Virus record (IMG/VR): IMGVR_UViG_3300037246_000415
Location: 1 to 22,007 of that record
Length of the DNA stretch: 22,007 bases
Reading direction: 5' to 3' (one strand)
Origin: a virus
Shown: one piece after another, positions 4,913-20,849 of the stretch
Numbering within the stretch: position 1 is the stretch's first letter
Layout of the letters: every line of letters begins with the position of its first letter
Position numbers and translations under genes: made by a program
Notes under the pieces: generated by a model
The model's database searches: none
What the model saw: the letters and a program-made list of their open reading frames with translations, nothing else
What the model was told of the DNA's origin: nothing

Positions 4913-4926
4913 GCTATCCCCTCGCT

Positions 4927-4993
4927 AGTCCGACGCTACTCGGACGCTGCTCGGACGCTAGTCCGACGCTGCTCCCGACGCTACTTCGACGCT
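4927..4993 (-). repeat. Six-copy 11-bp tandem repeat with interleaved dyads
   Basis: On the plus strand the units are AGTCCGACGCT, ACTCGGACGCT, GCTCGGACGCT, AGTCCGACGCT, GCTCCCGACGCT (12 bases) and ACTTCGACGCT, head to tail. The invariant part is GACGCT. Units alternate between TCCGAC and TCGGAC, so neighbouring copies are partly inverted to each other and can form stems such as CGGAC/GTCCG with a 4-base loop. The array fills nearly the whole gap between the chaperone extension stop (4981-4983) and the Shine-Dalgarno of the tape measure gene. A period of 11 is not a multiple of 3, and most of the array is outside any gene. Confidence 0.85.
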
Positions 4994-5190
4994 GCCGATC
5001 CGGCCGCCACCGCCACCGCGATCCCGGGCCCCATGTCGTCCTTCCCGGCCTGGAGGACCAGCTCGCGTATCATCTCGGTCTTCTGAGTCTCGGCCGCATT
5101 GGCAAAGGCCATGACGATATGGAACTCCCGCGAGGGTAGGTCCCAAACCTCGAACGGCCACTTGCCGTATATCTGGGCAGCCTTATTGAC
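4981..5190 (-). CDS. Tail assembly chaperone, frameshift-encoded C-terminal extension (GT-like)
   Basis: A 69-codon reading frame follows the chaperone gene in the +1 (equivalently -2) frame. It begins VNKAAQIYGKWPFEVW, continues with REFHIVMAFANAAETQ and ends VAAGSAASK with TAG. It has no ATG, GTG or TTG near its beginning; the first ATG is 27 codons in. The upstream chaperone frame overlaps it, and GGGG at 5197-5200 would let a glycyl-tRNA on GGG re-pair with GGG one base ahead. This matches the G/GT arrangement of siphophages, in which a fraction of ribosomes make a fusion that helps load tail tube subunits on the tape measure. The fusion would be about 218 residues. The exact slip site is inferred; a TTT CGC pair at the AKF-R codons upstream is a second candidate. 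Confidence 0.7.
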   Translation of the reverse strand, partial: VNKAAQIYGKWPFEVWDLPSREFHIVMAFANAAETQKTEMIRELVLQAGKDDMGPGIAVAVAAGSAASK

Positions 5191-5638
5191 CAGCCTCCCC
5201 GTCGGGGTCCACGCGAAACTTGGCGGCGACTGACGCCGCCTCCTTGACGTCCGTACCCGCGGCGATCGCCAGCACCTGGGTCGCCAGGATGATGAAGTCG
5301 TTGCCCAGGTCGGTTGCCGTCACGGCATCATCTGGACACTCGCTCGCCTCACCAGCCCAGAACTTAGGCTCGAGCATCACCTTCTCCAGGAGCTTGGACG
5401 CCAAGGGCGTGAGTTTGGTGATGTTCTTGTTCAGGTTCCCGAACTGCTTTTCTATGGCTCGCTTGCGGATCTTCGGATCGGCGTTGACGTCGGCGACGAT
5501 TGGATCCACCCCTGCCTCGATGAGGGTGAGGATGGACGGGCGCATGATGAGGATCTCGGTCCCCTCGGCACCCACGATCTTTATCCGGCTCTTTTCCCTG
5601 ATCGCCTTGGCGCGAGCGAGCGCCCCTGACTCTTCCAT
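5183..5638 (-). CDS. Tail assembly chaperone (G-like)
   Basis: This 151-residue protein lies between the tail tube gene and the tape measure gene, the diagnostic site for tail assembly chaperones. It starts at ATG with AGGGGG five bases upstream. The N-terminal third is a charged helix (EESGALARAKAIREKSRIK) followed by TEILIMRPSILTLIEAG. The remainder is helical with a hydrophobic C-terminal segment (DFIILATQVLAIAAG). Family members bind the tape measure protein before tail polymerisation and are absent from the finished virion. A frame-shifted extension overlaps the end of this gene. Sequence similarity to lambda G is not evident by eye, so the call rests on context, size and the overlapping extension. 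Confidence 0.8.
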   Translation of the reverse strand: MEESGALARAKAIREKSRIKIVGAEGTEILIMRPSILTLIEAGVDPIVADVNADPKIRKRAIEKQFGNLNKNITKLTPLASKLLEKVMLEPKFWAGEASECPDDAVTATDLGNDFIILATQVLAIAAGTDVKEAASVAAKFRVDPDGEAGQ

Positions 5639-10470: not shown

Positions 10471-11418
10471 TTACCGAGCCCGTACCTCGTCAGTCAAAAC
10501 ACGCACCCCCTGCATCGCCTTCTCCAAGGCGGCAAGGCGAGCAACATTGGCGGCTGCCCCCTTTTCTCCCGCGCCCGTAGCGGTAGGGGGCAGAGCCTCC
10601 GCTCCAGGCAAACGATCAGCCAGGAAGGCAGCCACAGCTCTGGCCTGCTCGGGGTCCAATCCCTCCAGGCCCTTGATCTGTAGGGCCAACTCCGGCCCTT
10701 CCTTCAGTCGTTCAAGCTCGGCCGACAGTCGCTCGACTTCCTCGACCAGATCATCCAGGCGGGTCGGGGTGGCCTTGAGCTTGGGCAGCACACCGAGGCG
10801 CTTGGCCATGCCCAGGACGGCACCAGCCGACAGGGCCAGCGCGTCAGGGTAGGCAGGGATCGGGACCGCCGAGTACTCGAGCAGCTCCCATTCCTTGAAG
10901 TCGAACCCACCGGTCCAGACCTCCTTCTCGACATCATCGACCGTGACCGTTTTCATGATCTTGTCGTACGCCTTGGGGACGAACCTGATCGAGACGGCGG
11001 TCATGAACCCGTCTACGTACTGACCAAAAACCTTCTTGTTGAACCCATCGGGATCGTTCTTGAGGTCGAACTGAGCCAGCGAGTACACACCATCGTCCTC
11101 GGGCTCCTCGCCCATCGACTTGCCGATCGGTGGATTCTCGTCGTTGTGGCCGAACAGGATCACCGGGGTCTTGCGGAACTCCTCGTTGTCCATGCCCTTC
11201 GGTTGAACGGTGTCGCCATAACGGTCGGTCTTGGGGCCTGAGATCCTGAAGATCCCCGTCCCCTTGTCCACATCGAAGCTGGCTGGGCCCTTCGGCGCAT
11301 CCCCTGCCCGCAGACAGGCGAGGTCGGGAGTCGTCTTGTCGTCCAGCGCCTTGGCGAGCGTCATGCGCTCGGCGTACTTCAGCGGCTGGAACTCTCGAAG
11401 TCGTTTAAGGGCGTCCAT
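10471..11418 (-). CDS. Prohead maturation protease (HK97 gp4 / S78 type) with C-terminal coiled coil
   Basis: A 315-residue protein starting MDALKRLREFQPLKYAERMT. AGGAGG lies upstream of this ATG; an in-frame ATG 11 codons earlier has no good site and was not used. The start overlaps the portal gene by 14 bases. The herpesvirus-type prohead protease fold is shown by ILFGHNDENPPIG with catalytic His near residue 91, TAVSIRFVP with catalytic Ser near 143, and WELLEYSAVPIPAYPDA with the third catalytic-site acidic residue probably near 181. The C-terminal 100 residues include a coiled coil (LDDLVEEVERLSAELERL) and a scaffold-like Ala-rich tail. The protein may therefore both scaffold and cleave the delta domain of the capsid protein. 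Confidence 0.93.
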   Translation of the reverse strand: MDALKRLREFQPLKYAERMTLAKALDDKTTPDLACLRAGDAPKGPASFDVDKGTGIFRISGPKTDRYGDTVQPKGMDNEEFRKTPVILFGHNDENPPIGKSMGEEPEDDGVYSLAQFDLKNDPDGFNKKVFGQYVDGFMTAVSIRFVPKAYDKIMKTVTVDDVEKEVWTGGFDFKEWELLEYSAVPIPAYPDALALSAGAVLGMAKRLGVLPKLKATPTRLDDLVEEVERLSAELERLKEGPELALQIKGLEGLDPEQARAVAAFLADRLPGAEALPPTATGAGEKGAAANVARLAALEKAMQGVRVLTDEVRAR

Positions 11419-13594
11419 TGGTCTCCACCTCCTGGGCCGATAGGCCGACATCTTCTGCCTCGCCCGTCAAGATGGGCTCGACGGTGCATCGGCAGTTGAT
11501 CGTCTCATCTGCGCAGCCACCAGCCGGGTCCCCGGGGAACTTGAGCAAGCAGCCACCGACCACAAAGTCATCGTTCAACCCCACGACCTGGCCATCGGCC
11601 TTGGTGTGGGTTGGCCGTGTCCCGGCCGCCTTGCCTCCAGGGGTCGCGAGCCACCGCTTCCGGTCCACCAGCCCCCCGGTCTGCTTGTAGCCCTCGATGG
11701 CCCCGAAGTTGAAGCTCTTGATCGCCTCAGTCCTGGCGATGGTGTTTGCCCGGGTCCGGTTGGCGAACTCCATGACTTCCTTGATGCGGTCGGATAGGCC
11801 AGACACCGACTCGCCCTCGGCGATCCCTTCGGCGATCGTGGTCTTGAGGCGGTCAATCGTAACGTCGTCTACCTCGGTCACCAGCTTGGCGCCCTCGCGC
11901 TTGATGAACTCCAGCACATCGGGCGATTGGATGTTGAAGTCCAGATCGGTGATCCCCATGTTCTCCAGCGCCGCCCCTCCAGAGGCGGCGAGGGCTTGGG
12001 CATACACCTCGTTGAACCGATCCCGGTTGCCCTCGAAGAGGGCTCGGATAATCAACTCGATCTCGTCGACGCCCCTCGTGACGGCTGCCTTAGACCACTG
12101 CTTCCGCCCCTTCTTGGCGCGAGCCAGCACTTCCTCGAGGTCGCGGAGTAGGGCATCCTCCTGTTCGGCGAACATCTGCTGAGCTACCCGGACAAAGACT
12201 CGGGCCCAGACCTGCACATTCCGGTCGAAGATCCGCCACAAGGCCTGACGCCTGAGGGCCTTGGAACCCTTCTGGACCTCCTCGAGCAGTCGATCCACCG
12301 CAGAGGACCCGCGCTCAGGCGCGATCGGCTTGGGCTCGGGCTTGGGTGCTGAGAACGGGAGCCCGCCACCGGGCATCAGGTTGAACGGCAGCAAGGCCTC
12401 GTCCCCGCCTTCCAGCGGAAGGAGGACGGGCAGCTGCCCCGTTGACAGCCACTGTCGGACTTCGTTCCGAACCAGGATGCCGGTCGTCACCATGGGGACC
12501 GCCGCGGTCGCGATCGCTACCCGGTCAGCCTGGAGGGCTGCGATCCCGGAGAGGTCGGCCATCAGGACCAGATCATCGCCGTACCGGACAGCCAGATCCT
12601 GGGTCAACCGTTGGCCCAGCTTCTTGAGCTTGGGGACGATGGTCAACTCCCAGAACTGCCGCTTCTGCTCCTGGGCATTGGCGTAGGTGGCGCCGTCCAG
12701 GAGCGTGACCATGACGGGTGGCACCCCGAGGGCCATCAGGATCTCCTCGCGGTTCATCCTCCGGAGCTGCTCGAACAGCATATCGGCGTGGGAAGGTTGG
12801 ACTGACTTGAAGTCGAGATCGTGGCTCAGGCCTTTGATGTCCCATGCCCGCTCGGAACCGGTGTGCTCCTGCCTGAACTCCTCAACGAGCTTCCGGAGGG
12901 TGGCGGGGTCGAGCTGCTCGGGGCTCTTGAGGATGCCGCTGAGCGTGGCCCCTCGCTTGAAGAACCCGGCGTTGAAGGCCACGGCCCAGAGGTCAACGAG
13001 CGCGGCCATGCTGGCGGGCTCGACGCTACCCTGACCTCTGAAGTCACGGTTCGGGCTGAAGTACCGGAGGTGGATGATCTCATCGCGGAGGAACTTGATC
13101 TTCCGGCCCTCGACGTCGTACTCGTAGCCCCTGACCTTCGTCTCCCGGTCGGGAAGCGGGCTTACCCTTGAGGGCTTGAGCGGGGTGATCGTTTCCGGCA
13201 CCCCCCCCGTCATCGCCTGCCCCCCTTCCAGGAGCCAAAAGGACTCGCCGCCGATCTCGAGGAACGCGGCGGTCGATTCCATCAAGTCATACCCGGTATC
13301 GTTTCGGTTCGGATGCTCGAGCAGGCGGGTCAGCTCGTGATCGGGAAGCTCCTCAAGCTCACCGTCGGCGGCCTGCCTGAATGTCCTCCAGGGGACCGAG
13401 GCGATGGCGTGCTGGATAGCGTAGACACCGGCGTATACCGTAGCCAGCTTCTCGTAGAGCCCGCCAGCGGTGATATTGTCGAAGTTCTCGCCTTCCTTGG
13501 CGGGCTTTCCTTCGGCCTGGGACGGGATCAGGACGGAGTAGGAGACCGAGCGCCGGAGCACCCGGTTGACCAGCCGTCTGATGCGTGACCACAT
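11405..13594 (-). CDS. Portal protein fused to a MuF-type head morphogenesis domain
   Basis: This 729-residue protein starts at an ATG with GGAG six bases upstream, inside the end of the preceding gene. Residues about 40-390 are an HK97-type portal: VYAGVYAIQHAIASVPWR, ESFWLLEGG, EIIHLRYFSPN, GILKSPEQL, and EILMALGVPPVMV, the conserved 'LGVP' clip/stem motif. A Pro-rich linker lies at about 405-428. Residues about 540-705 match the MuF fold: RANTIARTEAIKSFN at about 615-629, W648, H663, GLNDDFVVGG, FPGDP and the closing NCRC at 700-703. In many phages these are separate genes. The portal ring is the packaging and ejection channel, and MuF is a minor capsid protein thought to enter the head. 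The fusion places MuF at the portal vertex. Confidence 0.93.
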   Translation of the reverse strand: MWSRIRRLVNRVLRRSVSYSVLIPSQAEGKPAKEGENFDNITAGGLYEKLATVYAGVYAIQHAIASVPWRTFRQAADGELEELPDHELTRLLEHPNRNDTGYDLMESTAAFLEIGGESFWLLEGGQAMTGGVPETITPLKPSRVSPLPDRETKVRGYEYDVEGRKIKFLRDEIIHLRYFSPNRDFRGQGSVEPASMAALVDLWAVAFNAGFFKRGATLSGILKSPEQLDPATLRKLVEEFRQEHTGSERAWDIKGLSHDLDFKSVQPSHADMLFEQLRRMNREEILMALGVPPVMVTLLDGATYANAQEQKRQFWELTIVPKLKKLGQRLTQDLAVRYGDDLVLMADLSGIAALQADRVAIATAAVPMVTTGILVRNEVRQWLSTGQLPVLLPLEGGDEALLPFNLMPGGGLPFSAPKPEPKPIAPERGSSAVDRLLEEVQKGSKALRRQALWRIFDRNVQVWARVFVRVAQQMFAEQEDALLRDLEEVLARAKKGRKQWSKAAVTRGVDEIELIIRALFEGNRDRFNEVYAQALAASGGAALENMGITDLDFNIQSPDVLEFIKREGAKLVTEVDDVTIDRLKTTIAEGIAEGESVSGLSDRIKEVMEFANRTRANTIARTEAIKSFNFGAIEGYKQTGGLVDRKRWLATPGGKAAGTRPTHTKADGQVVGLNDDFVVGGCLLKFPGDPAGGCADETINCRCTVEPILTGEAEDVGLSAQEVETNGRP

Positions 13595-13597
13595 ACG

Positions 13598-13927
13598 CTA
13601 CTCCAGGATCGGGAGAACGGTGAACCGTTTGGACTCGGTGTGAAACAGATCCGTCGCACCGAACGAGATGAAGCCCTGAATGTCCCAGGGTCCATCAAAG
13701 CCCATGTCCCCGGCAATGGTCGTGTACTGCATTTTGCCGTCTAGGCCGTCTGTGACGAACGTCGCTGCCTTGGTCAGGATGATCGGGGGGTTACCCGATG
13801 CCGGGGGTTTCCGGAGCTTGATCTGCTTCGTCAGGGCGGCGTCGATGGGGATGACGTCCCCGGCCTCGTCGACCACGGTCAGCTCGAGTACCGTCCCGAC
13901 GTCTCCCTTGTGGATGTTTATGCTCAT
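13598..13927 (-). CDS. BppU-N-like beta-sandwich virion protein
   Basis: A 109-residue protein starts MSINIHKGDVGTVLELTVVD at an ATG overlapping the stop of the repeat protein as ATGA. The pattern is two-sheet beta-sandwich: GDVGTVLELTVVDEAGDVIP, KQIKLRKP, GKMQYTTIAG, GPWDIQGFISFG and SKRFTVLPILE. This is the layout of BppU N-terminal domains (DUF2479-like), small immunoglobulin-like modules found in baseplate and fibre proteins where they attach receptor-binding parts to the virion. Being coupled to the repeat protein, it may be the adaptor holding that protein to the particle; this partnership is inferred. Family assignment is by pattern only. Confidence 0.65.
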   Translation of the reverse strand: MSINIHKGDVGTVLELTVVDEAGDVIPIDAALTKQIKLRKPPASGNPPIILTKAATFVTDGLDGKMQYTTIAGDMGFDGPWDIQGFISFGATDLFHTESKRFTVLPILE

Positions 13928-16245
13928 CGTTTTGCCTCCTCTTCCAGCCGTCTCTGGTTGGCCATCTTCTCGAAATTCTGCCTGCGAACGGCAATCACGA
14001 TGAACCCCAGGCGTTCGGCCGGTGGTGCCCCTGATGCCTCGCCCTCGATCCGGGCTCCGATCTCGTCGGCTGCCTGATTGGCTCCTTCGATCCGGGCCCC
14101 GATCTCGGCGGTGGCGCTGGCCGTGCCATGAATCCTGGCCCCTCGTTGGAAGCTCGTCGCTGGTCCTGTGTGCCTGACCCCCTGGATCCTGGCCCCGATC
14201 TCGCCCTGGGCGGCGTCTAAGCCCTCAACCCGGGCTCCCCTGACCGATGAGGCCTGATCGATACCGTGGACCCGTCCACCGACCTCTGCGGAGTCCTGAG
14301 CCACTCCCTGGACTCGGGCTCCGATCTCAGCCTGATCCGAGGCAGCCCCATGGACCCGGCCCCCGACCTCGCTGGTGACGTGGGTCGCCCCGCCATCGCC
14401 CTCGATCCTGGCCCCGATCTCATCCGCGATGTTGGCCTGGCCGTGGATGCGTGACCCGATCTCAGCCGTGACGTTCAGGACACCCTGGACCCGGCCACCG
14501 ATCTCGTCAGCAAGCCCGAGAACTTCTCCGTGGAGTCGGCCTCCGATCTCCCCGGTCGCCCCGAGGATGCCCTCGATCCGGGCCCCGATCTCGGAACTGA
14601 CATTCAGAACGCCCTGGATGCGAGCCCCGATCTCGTCTGTGGACTGTGCGATGCCCTGAATCCGGCCGCCGATCTCATCGGTGACCAGGATACCGACGCC
14701 CTCGATCCTGCCGCCTACCTCGTCGCCTATATTGGCGATGCCATGGACGCGCCCACCGGCCTCGCTGGCGGCCGAGTCGGTGCCGGAGATCCGACCGCCG
14801 ACCTCGGATACAACGGATGCGACGCCCTGGATCCGGGCACCGATCTCATCGGCGGCTGCCGCCTGGCCATGGATGCGACCGCCGACCTCGGCGCTGGCCT
14901 GGGCCACACCCTGAATCCGAGCCCCGATCTCGGCGGCGATATTGGCAATGCCGTGGGTGCGCCCGCCGATCTCGTCGGTGACGTTGGTCACTCCACCATC
15001 GCCCTCGATCCGGCCGCCTCGCTCGTTGCCCAGACCCAGTACTTGACCGTGAATCCGGGCCCCAACCTCGTCGGTTACATGAGTGGAGGGAGCATCCCAC
15101 GGACCCTCGATCAGATCGTCGGCCTCGTTCAGTTCAAGGGTGAAGACGTGATCGCCGCCGCCGTGGCCTTCCGGGTGGTCGATGACGCAGATCGCCTGGA
15201 AGAGATCGAACTCGTCACCGTCGGTCGGGTTGAGGGTCCGAGAGCAGGTCTTGACCCCGGTCCCCGAGTGGGTGCCCTCGGTCTGCTCCCAGGAGTCGGT
15301 GTGCGATGCTCCGACGAAGTTGTAGATCCCGAAGTGCCCGGTGACCGAGTTGAGCGTCTTGATCCCGTAGACGTGCGAGCCCTCGTTGAGGGTGCAATCG
15401 ATCTGGGCCTGATAGAGTCCGTTCGGGTGGACTCCGGGAGTCCCGCCTCCGATAAGACCCGCGCCAAAGTTCCAGCCCCAGGCCTCGGTCGCGGCCGTGG
15501 TCTTGCCGGTGGTCATCGAGAGCGACCCAGCCGTGATAGGTGACTCCTCGGTGGTCAGCTCCCTATCGAGCGAGTGGCCGTCGATGCCCCCGACACCATC
15601 GCCCAGGTAGCGGGTGTATGTCCCGGTCTTGGGTGAGCGGAGCCCGAGCAGGGCCTGACGGTTGCTGACCTTGCCTGTTCGGGGGTCAATGACCTTCGAG
15701 TCGACGCCCTCGGTCCACTCCCGCCAGCCGCGCATCGTCCTGGCCGCCTGGGCAGCGACCCAGAGCGGATCGGGGAGCATGATCCCGTGGACGATGTTAC
15801 CGGCGGGGAGATCAGCGAAGAAGGCCGCCCATGGCTTGAACGTCACGCTCTGCCAAGGACCGAGACCCCGGAATCGGATGTCTACCGAGCCGCCTGGCTG
15901 GCCGTACCAGACCTCGCTCTGTGCGGTGTTCCAGGCCCCGCCGAGCAGGGGATCGGGGCGGAGGTTCTCGAGCGTTACGACCCGAGCGCGGAACTCGAGC
16001 GGGGCCCAGATGGTCGGATCGTCCCACCACGACCAGACCCGAGCGCCGCCCGAGGGCAGGTGTTCTACGTGGTAGTGGTCGGCATCATCGAACACCACGC
16101 CCTGGACGTTGATCGAGTTGACGAACGCCCCAGGGGTGGTGAGCGGGGACTTGTCGGGAGCTGCCTCGATGCGCTCCCAGTCCGTCGAGGCAAGCTCAAC
16201 GAAGTCCCGAGCTTCTGTCTCAGCCGGTTGCCATAGCACTCTCAT
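13924..16245 (-). CDS. Putative virion fibre with about 24 copies of a 14-residue EIGARI repeat
   Basis: A 773-residue protein with three parts. Residues 1-215 are unrecognised and beta-rich, with many aromatic residues (ARVWSWWDDPTIW). Residues about 225-385 look like a jelly-roll virion domain (EGSHVYGIKTLNSVTGHFGIYN). Residues 393-735 are about 24 tandem repeats, mostly 14 residues long, of the form E-[IV]-G-[AG]-R-[IV]-x-G plus six variable small residues. A basic/acidic tail (RRQNFEKMANQRRLEEEAKR) closes the protein. Period and Gly spacing suggest a beta-solenoid or intertwined trimeric shaft, as in fibres and in the 14-residue YadA head repeats, although the YadA NSVAIG motif is absent. 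It is encoded between terminase and portal, so a head fibre is as likely as a tail fibre. No good Shine-Dalgarno precedes the ATG, which overlaps the previous gene by 26 bases. Confidence 0.75.
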   Translation of the reverse strand: MRVLWQPAETEARDFVELASTDWERIEAAPDKSPLTTPGAFVNSINVQGVVFDDADHYHVEHLPSGGARVWSWWDDPTIWAPLEFRARVVTLENLRPDPLLGGAWNTAQSEVWYGQPGGSVDIRFRGLGPWQSVTFKPWAAFFADLPAGNIVHGIMLPDPLWVAAQAARTMRGWREWTEGVDSKVIDPRTGKVSNRQALLGLRSPKTGTYTRYLGDGVGGIDGHSLDRELTTEESPITAGSLSMTTGKTTAATEAWGWNFGAGLIGGGTPGVHPNGLYQAQIDCTLNEGSHVYGIKTLNSVTGHFGIYNFVGASHTDSWEQTEGTHSGTGVKTCSRTLNPTDGDEFDLFQAICVIDHPEGHGGGDHVFTLELNEADDLIEGPWDAPSTHVTDEVGARIHGQVLGLGNERGGRIEGDGGVTNVTDEIGGRTHGIANIAAEIGARIQGVAQASAEVGGRIHGQAAAADEIGARIQGVASVVSEVGGRISGTDSAASEAGGRVHGIANIGDEVGGRIEGVGILVTDEIGGRIQGIAQSTDEIGARIQGVLNVSSEIGARIEGILGATGEIGGRLHGEVLGLADEIGGRVQGVLNVTAEIGSRIHGQANIADEIGARIEGDGGATHVTSEVGGRVHGAASDQAEIGARVQGVAQDSAEVGGRVHGIDQASSVRGARVEGLDAAQGEIGARIQGVRHTGPATSFQRGARIHGTASATAEIGARIEGANQAADEIGARIEGEASGAPPAERLGFIVIAVRRQNFEKMANQRRLEEEAKR
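14041..15069 (-). repeat. Coding tandem repeat, about 24 units of roughly 42 bp
   Basis: Within the 773-residue gene the Glu starting each unit is at residues 393, 408, 425, 439, 453, 467, 481, 495, 509, 524, 538, 552, 566, 581, 595, 609, 626, 640, 654, 682, 714 and 728. Two further units (about 669 and 701) begin with RGAR and lack the E-I. Most steps are 14 residues, with 15 or 17 where loops are longer. At DNA level units are recognisable by plus-strand words such as CCGATCTC but differ at many sites. Confidence 0.92.
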
Positions 16246-17840: not shown

Positions 17841-18332
17841 CTAGAACTTGATCCGCATTCCACCGCTCAGGCCGATGAGATCCTTGGCGTCCTCCTCGCT
17901 GAGCTTCCGCCCGTCTACATTGGCGAACATGGCGGTCCCGGCTGCGACCCCAACCTCGGCACCTCCTCGGACCGCTATCGTCCCGAGGGCCGACGCCGCG
18001 ACTTCAACGTATGTCCGGAGCCCGCCTTCCAAGCCGGTCATGTAGAACCGACCGAACCCCCAAGGCGAGCCCTTGATCCTGGCAGCACCGACCTCGCCCT
18101 CGATGGTCGTGGCGTTGACCCTGACCCCGATGGCGAAGCGACGGCTCGGGTGGATCGCGGCGGCAACGTAAACCTCAACCCCGGCTGCGTCCGCGGTGTC
18201 GTCCACGGCCATCAAGAACCCCGGTCCGATGTCGAAGCTAAACTTGTAGGCGGGGCCCTCTTCGGGGGCGTCCTGGGCCATGGCAGGCGGGGCCATCAGA
18301 GCCACAGCCAGCGCGGCTAGAATCAATCGCAT
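17841..18332 (-). CDS. Outer-membrane beta-barrel-like protein (Lom/OmpX size class)
   Basis: A 163-residue protein starts at an ATG with AGGAGG five to six bases upstream. Residues 1-19 are a signal peptide (MRLILAALAVALMAPPAMA) with probable cleavage after AMA. The mature part of about 144 residues alternates short strands and turns (KFSFDIGPGFLMAV, VEVYVAAAIHP, FAIGVRVNATTI, LRTYVEVAASALG) and ends GLSGGMRIKF, a terminal Phe that is the usual insertion signal of outer-membrane barrels. Size and layout suit a barrel of about 6-8 strands, comparable with lambda Lom and the Ail/OmpX family, which change host surface properties. It points to a Gram-negative host. A loop with charged residues (NVDGRKLSEEDAKDL) precedes the last strand. 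Homology is inferred from pattern only. Confidence 0.75.
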   Translation of the reverse strand: MRLILAALAVALMAPPAMAQDAPEEGPAYKFSFDIGPGFLMAVDDTADAAGVEVYVAAAIHPSRRFAIGVRVNATTIEGEVGAARIKGSPWGFGRFYMTGLEGGLRTYVEVAASALGTIAVRGGAEVGVAAGTAMFANVDGRKLSEEDAKDLIGLSGGMRIKF

Positions 18333-18341
18333 CTCATCCTC

Positions 18342-19046
18342 CTAGTTTCTGCCCTCTAGGGCTGCGGCAATCCTTGAGACTCGAACCGAACTCAGGTTCT
18401 CCGGGACCGCATGGCCTGCCTCGGCCTCGACCTCGAAGTACACCTGGGTAACCTTGTTCTCGCTGGTGAACTGCCTGACCTTCATCTCGAAGCCCAGCAC
18501 CGCGCGGTCAAGGTCCCCGTACGTCCAGACCTTGCCCTCGGGGTGGGGGACCTCGAGCCTGAAGTCCTGCCAGACGAAAGTCCCCACTGCTAGAGCCTCT
18601 GGGCCGGAAACCGGCAGAGGCCCGGTGTCCAGGGAATCGGTGACCAGTCGGGCGGTGCTCCTCATGATCGGGATGGTGGCGCTGACCGGGAACGCCCGAA
18701 TCCTCAGATAGACCGCGTTGATCTGACCCTGGCGAACGACTGGCTTTGTGACACGGTAGCCAATGCCGATCCAGTTGTCGATGAAGTCGATGGCATGGAC
18801 GAGCGTGGTCACATCGTCGTCCGGGCTCCCGATCGGGTCGGCTACGCGCTCGACGACCTCTAGGATGTGGGCAGCATGAGCCCCGGGACCTACGGACCCA
18901 GGCTCAGGCCCCCAAAGGGCATTGAAATCCCGGTCCTTGGTCGTGACCACGGTCAAGAACTCCGACTCCATGGCCATCGGTTCCTCCGGGTTCTGGCAGG
19001 CCAGGCCGATCAGGACAGCCAGGCCGATCAGTCTACTTCTGCCCAC
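18342..19046 (-). CDS. Lipoprotein-like protein with C-terminal beta-sandwich
   Basis: This 234-residue product starts at GTG (MGRSRLIGLAVLIGLACQNP), overlapping the end of the 45-residue gene by 14 bases. The N-terminus has two Arg, a hydrophobic stretch and Cys17 in a G-L-A-C context, close to but not an ideal lipobox. Residues about 75-225 look like an all-beta domain: VHAIDFIDNWIGIGYRVTK, AVYLRIRAF, TFVWQDFRLEVPHPEG, then VWTYGDLDRAVLGFEMKV and TQVYFEVEAEAG. The WTYGDLD...GFE motif is reminiscent of fibre-like virion domains in other phages. It may therefore be a surface-displayed lipoprotein or a virion protein with a coincidental hydrophobic start. The following barrel gene is 9 bases away, suggesting joint expression. 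Confidence 0.65.
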   Translation of the reverse strand: MGRSRLIGLAVLIGLACQNPEEPMAMESEFLTVVTTKDRDFNALWGPEPGSVGPGAHAAHILEVVERVADPIGSPDDDVTTLVHAIDFIDNWIGIGYRVTKPVVRQGQINAVYLRIRAFPVSATIPIMRSTARLVTDSLDTGPLPVSGPEALAVGTFVWQDFRLEVPHPEGKVWTYGDLDRAVLGFEMKVRQFTSENKVTQVYFEVEAEAGHAVPENLSSVRVSRIAAALEGRN

Positions 19047-19181: not shown

Positions 19182-20849
19182 TTAGCTGACCACGGTCGGG
19201 ACGCCCTTCTTGCGGAGCTGCCACGCTATGGCCCATGCGAAGATACGATCCCGCCAGTTGCCCGAGGTGCCAGCGGCATCCTCTTCCCCCGCTTCGTCTC
19301 CCGCCTGCATGGCGATACACTCGGCGAGGAAGGCTCGGCTACGGATCACCATGCCGCCGATGGTAAAGCACTCGCGCAGATCGTCAAACATCTCTGGCCG
19401 CGTTTTGCCGTCTGTCGGCCAGCCGAGCTTGAAGCGTCGGGTCTCCCCGCTGCGCTGGTCGTAGTACCGATGCCGGTAGATCGGGTAGTACCCGCTGCCT
19501 CTGAGGGCGGCGATGGTGGTGTGCCCGTGATTGTTGATCTCGGGACCGACAAGGGCCTGGTTGTACCAGTAGCCGAGGTTGACCAGGATCCTCTTGCCGA
19601 AGTCGGTCGGATTGGCGTGGCCATGCCACTCGGCGACCTGCTCGGGCGGGTCGGTCGATAGGTCCAGGACAGCCGCGACCGAGTAGGCGCAGCCAGGCAG
19701 GCCCTCGGCCACATCGGCCCCGATGACGTATCGGTGCCCCTTCTGAGGCTCGACCCAGACGGTCAGGCCGGGCTGGCAGAGGCCGTGGAGCCGGGCCTCG
19801 GGATGGATGGGTCGGACCCGCTTCTCGACGACCTGCAGGAGGTCCCGGAGGAGTTCGTTGTCGAACTTGGGCGTCCCGCCAACGAGGAAGCAGGTCTCAT
19901 CGTCCTCGGGATGCTCCTGGTTGAACAGCGGGCCGAGCCGCTTCTTCTTCTCCCGCCTCCACGCTACCTGCTCGGCGTCGAGCCCGTAGAGCCTGACCAG
20001 TCGAGTCTCGTCCTTGCTGAGGTCCCCGAGGTCAGGCCATCCACCAGGGCAGGCCAGCCGGTTGCCCGGGTCTTCCCACCAGGTGAAGAAGTGGGCAGTC
20101 CTGCCCGTCTCGCCATCCCGAGCCTCCTTGTAGATCTGCCGGAACCGGTCGAACCCCTGAGGCGTCGACTCGAAGTCCAGCCAGGCGTCTGAGATGGCAG
20201 CCTCACCGGCGGCGGCCAGGACCTTGCCGAGGTCGGGATAGTGGGCAGCCTCGGAGAAGTGCCCACAGGACATATCGCCCGCCCTGCCTGACTCCTTGCC
20301 TCCGGCGGTCAGGAGCCGAAGGTGTGACCCGTTATCGGCGAACACCAACTCCCGACGACTCGAGCGCTCGGTCGGCCCGGTGATGAAGGCAGGCATCGAC
20401 TCATGGGCTCGGCGGATACGGTCCCAGAGCTCTGCGGTCGAGTCGGCGACGTGAGCCATGATGTAGGCGTGTTGGAATGACCGAGCCCGACAGCGCCAGT
20501 AGTACAGGGCGTCGATGATGGTCGAGAGGCCTTCCTTCCTGGCCTTGACGATCACATTCTCCCGGGTTCGGTCCTGAAGGAACTGCCACTGGATCGGGTT
20601 AGGCCTGAGCAGGACGATCCGCGAGGTCTTGTCGGTCAGCGTCCAGTACCGGCTGGCCCAATAGATAAACCCCGCAGTCGGGTCGGTGGTGGTCTGGGCG
20701 AAGCACCGAGCGACCTCGGCCCGCTGCCAGAGCGGATCTGTCCCGACCTGGCGGCGCTCGAGTAGGACGGCATCCCGATAGTCCTGATCCGACATCGACC
20801 AGACCGATGGGGTCACTTCTTGTTTTTGCGCCATCCCGGAGGCCACCAT
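19182..20849 (-). CDS. terL: Terminase large subunit (packaging ATPase and nuclease)
   Basis: A 555-residue protein, normal length for the family. The ATPase domain has an adenine-binding region PNPIQWQFL (residues 84-91), a P-loop variant KARKEGLST (102-110) in place of the classical GxxxxGK[ST], a Walker B-like strand CGHFSEAAHY with Glu near 200, and the coupling motif ESTPQG (227-232). The RNase H-like nuclease domain shows Asp near 379 (VIGADVAEG), Glu near 437 (VGPEINNHG) and Asp near 534 (NWRDRIFAWA), the expected acidic triad. It moves DNA into proheads through the portal and cuts concatemers. The start at 20849 overlaps the 89-residue gene by 37 bases; an in-frame ATG at 20834 is equally possible as neither has a strong site. 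Confidence 0.95.
   Translation of the reverse strand: MVASGMAQKQEVTPSVWSMSDQDYRDAVLLERRQVGTDPLWQRAEVARCFAQTTTDPTAGFIYWASRYWTLTDKTSRIVLLRPNPIQWQFLQDRTRENVIVKARKEGLSTIIDALYYWRCRARSFQHAYIMAHVADSTAELWDRIRRAHESMPAFITGPTERSSRRELVFADNGSHLRLLTAGGKESGRAGDMSCGHFSEAAHYPDLGKVLAAAGEAAISDAWLDFESTPQGFDRFRQIYKEARDGETGRTAHFFTWWEDPGNRLACPGGWPDLGDLSKDETRLVRLYGLDAEQVAWRREKKKRLGPLFNQEHPEDDETCFLVGGTPKFDNELLRDLLQVVEKRVRPIHPEARLHGLCQPGLTVWVEPQKGHRYVIGADVAEGLPGCAYSVAAVLDLSTDPPEQVAEWHGHANPTDFGKRILVNLGYWYNQALVGPEINNHGHTTIAALRGSGYYPIYRHRYYDQRSGETRRFKLGWPTDGKTRPEMFDDLRECFTIGGMVIRSRAFLAECIAMQAGDEAGEEDAAGTSGNWRDRIFAWAIAWQLRKKGVPTVVS

Follow-up and report, generated by a model that had tools for sequence, protein, structure and literature searches.

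A 14-residue repeat in a siphovirus-like phage

What kind of object is built by a long and strictly patterned repeat protein whose gene lies between the terminase and portal genes of a phage? The question is raised by an IMG/VR virus record of 22,007 bases (G+C, 64%), the whole of which we analysed and refer to as the window. Its source is a virus of bacteria that is known solely from environmental DNA. The likely genes of the window all have minus-strand orientation. From right to left they comprise a helix-turn-helix-like open reading frame (ORF), assigned by reading, in the small-terminase position (21609-21079), the terminase large subunit (TerL; 19182-20849; phrog_2, 4.5e-17), several small genes, a 773-residue protein (13924-16245), a 109-residue protein (13598-13927), the portal protein (11405-13594), protease-like and capsid-like genes recognized by position and reading, and the tape-measure protein (4912-2834). 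The portal is fused to a Mu-F-like head morphogenesis domain (PF04860, 5e-69; PF04233, 2e-15; phrog_2662). This gene set is that of a siphovirus-like tailed phage.

The 773-residue protein is encoded by an open frame with an ATG start and an ATGA overlap with the next gene. Its N-terminal region (residues 1-230; 15556-16245) belongs to no family and is followed by a Gly/Thr-rich domain (residues 266-383; 15097-15450), which carries a PW dipeptide at its end. The repeats then begin, with 24 units of the form E[IV]G[AG]R[IV]xG plus 6-10 variable residues (residues 393-741; 14023-15069). A charged C-terminal tail (residues 742-773; 13927-14022) is predicted to be helical (pLDDT about 80).

The original prediction of a 14-residue repeat was borne out. 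The core motif G[GAS]R[IVLT] occurs 24 times in register across residues 393-741, compared with a mean of 0.12 and a maximum of 3 in 5,000 shuffles of the array region. The array had been thought to end at 14041, where the codon for residue 735 ends. Gly3, Arg5 and Gly8 are present in all 24 units, as are Ala, Gly or Ser at position 4 and Ile, Val, Leu or Thr at position 6 (Ile or Val in 22 units), whereas Glu1 is present in 22, Ile or Val at position 2 in 20, and His, Glu or Gln at position 7 in 23. The near-regular period proposed at first holds for most of the array, with a spacing of 14 residues in 17 of 23 intervals, but the others measure 15 (three), 17 (two) or 18 (one); six units carry 1, 3 or 4 extra residues, always after Gly8. 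Self-identity within the array is 0.35 at lag 14 and 0.30 at lag 28, compared with about 0.09 at most other lags, and a one-unit DNA pattern matches the window 14 times against 0.01 expected. His alternates with Glu/Gln at position 7, with 17 changes where 11.3 are expected (p = 0.006 by permutation; three positions were tested), a hint in the sequence of a possible 28-residue super-repeat. The array consists of 21% Gly and 20% Ile plus Val, with 2.9% Leu and 4.0% Thr, and is free of Lys, Met, Tyr and Trp.

An old array under protein-level selection

The codons of the array bear on its age. Codons for identical glycines agreed among units at 33.6%, compared with 33.2% expected from the codon usage of the other genes. 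The corresponding values were 34.4% versus 26.4% for Arg and 69.7% versus 37.9% for Ala, so that synonymous saturation is clearest at Gly. Tandem Repeats Finder detected no DNA tandem repeat in the array region. Because glycine codons agree only at the level set by codon usage and no DNA array is found, the array is old and has been held by selection on the protein; persistence of the protein pattern while the DNA drifted is what such selection predicts. The probability that the array is instead a recent product of DNA slippage, or a chance periodicity without meaning at the protein level, is negligible given the saturated glycine positions, the absence of a Tandem Repeats Finder array and the motif count of 24 against 0.12.

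The repeat matches no named family in the libraries searched

The array had no match in Pfam up to E = 5 or in NCBIfam, and among PHROGs it showed one marginal overlap of 24 residues (phrog_30686; E 4e-4), which gave no signal in the own-genome search. These results agree with the initial view that the repeat has no named family. A literature search for EIGAR returned nothing relevant. The 773-residue protein also lacked a convincing match to a known tail-fibre family in Pfam, PHROGs, NCBIfam or phage tblastn.

Relatives in other phages were also sought, and none that was convincing emerged. Nor did a second copy of the array turn up in which change at its variable positions, proposed at first to be exposed and adaptable, could be followed. 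The whole 773-residue protein and residues 1-392 had no tblastn match among 50,697 phage records. An exact two-unit DNA pattern, which requires CGN arginine codons and exact 14-residue spacing, had no match in IMG/VR viral contigs or GTDB genome contigs, and a profile search with single-unit patterns yielded 23 candidates, none of which was confirmed. Because these patterns allowed no change in the spacing or in some of the codons, distant relatives may exist.

Several other matches were considered and rejected. When phages and plasmids were searched by tblastn with the array, all hits were weak (22-29% identity) and fell on host-specificity proteins, tail fibres and chemoreceptors; we judged them to be compositional. 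We judged in the same way the matches to chemoreceptor coiled coils in the PDB (E 7e-5), in which the glycine pattern is absent. A looser three-unit pattern retrieved six stretches from IMG/VR viral contigs, all of which were collagen-like GNQGASVTG proteins or unrelated frames.

Two known repeats come close in length. YadA-type beta-roll head repeats share with the array a period of 14 residues, a small and Gly-rich composition and the use of Ile and Val rather than Leu. By contrast, their glycines are spaced at about 7+7, compared with 5+9 in the array, and the near-invariant Glu1 and invariant Arg5 fall outside the YadA motif. As first proposed, the period is thus shared with YadA and the motif is not, and no Pfam YadA_head match was found at E up to 5. 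The triple beta-spiral of adenovirus and reovirus is a trimeric shaft built from short repeats of about 15 residues, a length similar to that of the window unit, but by eye its spiral pattern and turn residues are unmatched in the array. We regard the 14-residue repeat as a new repeat in an already known kind of object.

A BppU_N-like protein is encoded next to the array

Directly downstream of the repeat gene lies the gene for the 109-residue protein (13598-13927, minus strand), which has its own AGGAGG before the ATG and overlaps the end of the 773-residue gene by ATGA. The protein is 43% identical to a 113-residue homologue in a related phage contig, L008 (Z about 30), and 44% identical to a homologue in a second contig, L020. 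The L020 homologue matches Pfam BppU_N (PF10651) at 27.8 bits against a cut-off of 23.1. The window protein itself had no BppU_N hit in Pfam, two of five homologues matched at E up to 10, and a BppU_N-like profile had no match in the PDB. Judged by sequence, the 109-residue protein is probably a BppU_N relative, with the link running through its homologues.

In siphophages, it is through the N-terminal domains of BppU proteins that receptor-binding proteins or fibres are mounted on the tail; the lateral fibres of phage 80alpha are attached in this way (PMC7291167). Phage T5 encodes p132, a stand-alone protein with the BppU_N fold that is linked to fibres (PMC7291167). The 109-residue protein is thus a candidate stand-alone fibre anchor. 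The L-shaped tail fibre of T5 (pb1) offers a close likeness, in that a small stand-alone protein of BppU_N type accompanies a fibre (PMC7291167); for the window protein, this type is assigned by homology through L020. Unlike in the T5 system, the putative window fibre has no sequence match to phage fibres, its gene lies between TerL and the portal, and the 32 residues that follow the array contain no recognizable C-terminal chaperone domain.

Repeat types differ between related phages

The close kin of the window phage are L008 and L009. The portal of L008 is 57% identical to that of the window, and at the same locus L008 encodes a different repeat protein, then the homologous small gene, then the portal. 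The L008 repeat protein (575 residues; L008:523-2250) consists in large part of about sixteen 23-residue repeats (LDPATAAATGxALTxxLGALTI), and it had no match in PHROGs and none in Pfam above the curated cut-off. Its array spans about 350-360 residues, similar to the 349 residues of the window array, but the repeat differs in unit length, motif and composition, with 13% Leu and 13% Thr compared with 2.9% and 4.0% in the window.

The domains that precede the two arrays may nevertheless be related. Local alignment of the N-terminal domain of the L008 repeat protein with residues 266-383 of the window protein scored 55, compared with 33.4 +/- 5.9 for shuffled sequences (Z 3.7, p 0.005 from shuffles), whereas BLASTP alone gave E 0.31. 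In both proteins the domain ends in a PW dipeptide shortly before the array. The N-terminal region of the window protein (residues 1-230) is possibly the counterpart of a separate ORF, L008:189-530, although this similarity was not significant (p = 0.10). Should the two domains be true homologues, this one phage pair would have retained both anchor and mounting domain and exchanged the shaft repeat.

More distant phages show the module in other settings. L020 and L021 have no match to the window portal and so are not close kin. The BppU_N gene of L020 comes after that for a fibre-like protein of the beta-helix/G8 type. L021 (5044-6222, at the contig end) encodes a protein in which about six 37-residue D-x-W...P..EP repeats precede a fused BppU_N-like domain. 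Repeat types found beside a BppU_N-like gene or domain thus have units of 14 and 23 residues in the two relatives and about 37 residues in the more distant one. In L019, also more distant, TerL is followed directly by the portal and the module is absent there, which points to either a gain of the module by insertion in one line or its loss from the other. Of our results, the comparison with L008 is the most useful: drawn from the sequences of one pair of phages, it suggests that unrelated types of shaft repeat can replace each other on one mounting.

Role of the repeat protein

We consider it probable that the old 24-unit array forms a tail-fibre shaft and that the BppU_N-like protein anchors this fibre. 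The proposal that the 773-residue protein is a phage fibre gained from the BppU_N-like gene directly downstream and from the syntenic repeat protein of L008, but no sequence match to known fibres appeared. The repeat, its age, the selection on the protein and the neighbouring genes are observed here; we infer the virion location, the oligomeric state, the Glu/Arg pairing, the fold and the outward-pointing end. On this reading the 773-residue protein would belong to the virion of a siphovirus-like phage as an attachment fibre, with the array as its structural shaft acting together with the downstream protein. The BppU_N-like protein would probably anchor this fibre to the tail, the role proposed for p132 and the L-shaped fibres of T5, and the Gly/Thr-rich domain ahead of the array would be the likely globular or receptor-facing part. 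Each eight-residue core (E-I/V-G-A/G-R-I/V-x-G) would form one identical step of a shaft, probably a homotrimer, along which Glu1 and Arg5 would pair, and the residues after Gly8 would form a loop that tolerates zero to four extra residues.

Some observations speak against the tail-fibre reading. A place between TerL and the portal is unusual for a tail-fibre gene, and L019 lacks the module there; in addition, AlphaFold2 returned helices for the array (see below). One alternative explanation is a head fibre or capsid decoration, with the array protruding from the capsid; the position of the gene beside the portal and head genes would then be accounted for. The order TerL, module, portal, protease-like gene and capsid-like gene fits this explanation, as does L019, in which the direct succession of TerL and portal makes the module an insertion in, or a loss from, a head cluster. 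However, the adjacent small gene belongs with the BppU_N proteins, which in known phages serve as anchors at the tail or baseplate, and its L020 homologue adjoins a gene for a beta-helix fibre-like protein. We therefore regard a head location as distinctly improbable and continue to favour the tail-fibre shaft.

Fold of the array

A beta-solenoid or trimeric shaft with stacked Glu/Arg pairs had been proposed for the array, and structure prediction of the monomer did not return such a fold. For a segment of eight units, modelled with a three-row alignment of segments from the same protein, AlphaFold2 predicted a single helix with a mean pLDDT of 90.5. The whole array alone was also modelled as helices, with a mean pLDDT of 56.5, so that confidence was confined to the eight-unit piece. 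For perfect repeats, AlphaFold2 has been reported to over-predict beta-solenoids with confidence, and in one such case another model gave a similarly confident helix (PMC11795689). Given this bias, the failure to obtain a solenoid counts somewhat against one, and the helix is not established either. Power in the hydrophobicity profile was divided between period 2.0 (strand; 37%) and period 3.5 (helix; 33%).

An alpha-helical, coiled-coil-like rod, which would compete with a beta fold and be compatible with the fibre role, has several points in its favour besides these models. Fourteen residues make two heptads, with positions 2, 6, 9 and 13 as the hydrophobic positions, and Glu1 and Arg5 stand at i,i+4, as in an intrahelical salt bridge; both features argue for a helix. 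Unit lengths of 15, 17 and 18 correspond to discontinuities of +1, +3 and +4, which are tolerated in coiled coils, and weak matches of the array fall on coiled-coil chemoreceptors. By contrast, the glycine content, with two invariant glycines per 14 residues, and the strong preference for Ile and Val over Leu are at odds with a helical rod. Identity at lag 7 gives no signal (0.074), confidence falls for the full array, and position 13 is seldom hydrophobic (17%, compared with 83%, 96% and 54% at positions 2, 6 and 9). We consider such a rod unlikely, if still a serious competitor. Somewhat more doubtful is a flexible, largely unfolded spacer carrying repeated short binding motifs like beads on a string. 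This would agree with the low confidence of the whole-array model, with the linkers after Gly8, which vary in length and in some units contain DGG or GP, and with the near absence of large hydrophobic residues apart from Ile and Val. However, a hydrophobic residue at position 6 in 23 of 24 units and at position 2 in 20, together with invariant Gly3, Arg5 and Gly8, is a stricter pattern than expected of such a spacer.

On balance we have a mild preference for a beta fold over a helix, because Gly accounts for 21% of the array and Ile plus Val for 20%, compared with 3% for Leu; a beta-solenoid with a Glu/Arg ladder is a hypothesis. That the array represents a new fibre-shaft fold, with 24 near-identical eight-residue steps at a locus that swaps whole repeat types and keeps a BppU_N-like anchor, is conceivable, although we would not expect it. 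How far and how stiffly a phage attachment fibre extends depends on its shaft, and few shaft repeat folds have been solved. A regular, Gly-rich Glu/Arg repeat of no named family would make an attractive small subject for structural studies and protein-materials research.

Other features of the window

Two of the small genes between TerL and the repeat gene encode proteins with export-like starts. A 163-residue protein (17841-18332, minus strand) has a signal-peptide-like N terminus (MRLILAALAVALMAPPAMAQ), and its alternating Gly-rich sequence recalls a small outer-membrane protein, which is odd for a phage; it had no match in Pfam or PHROGs and no significant match in NCBIfam. A 234-residue protein (18342-19046, minus strand) has a lipoprotein-like start (GLAVLIGLACQNPEE) and no match in NCBIfam. 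Immediately upstream of the tape-measure gene, Tandem Repeats Finder detected an 11-bp tandem repeat of 6.4 copies (4923-4995; CGCTACTCCGA). Directly ahead of the tape measure, a 151-residue ORF is followed by a 67-residue ORF (4958-5638, minus strand), at the usual location of tail-assembly chaperones made by frameshifting.
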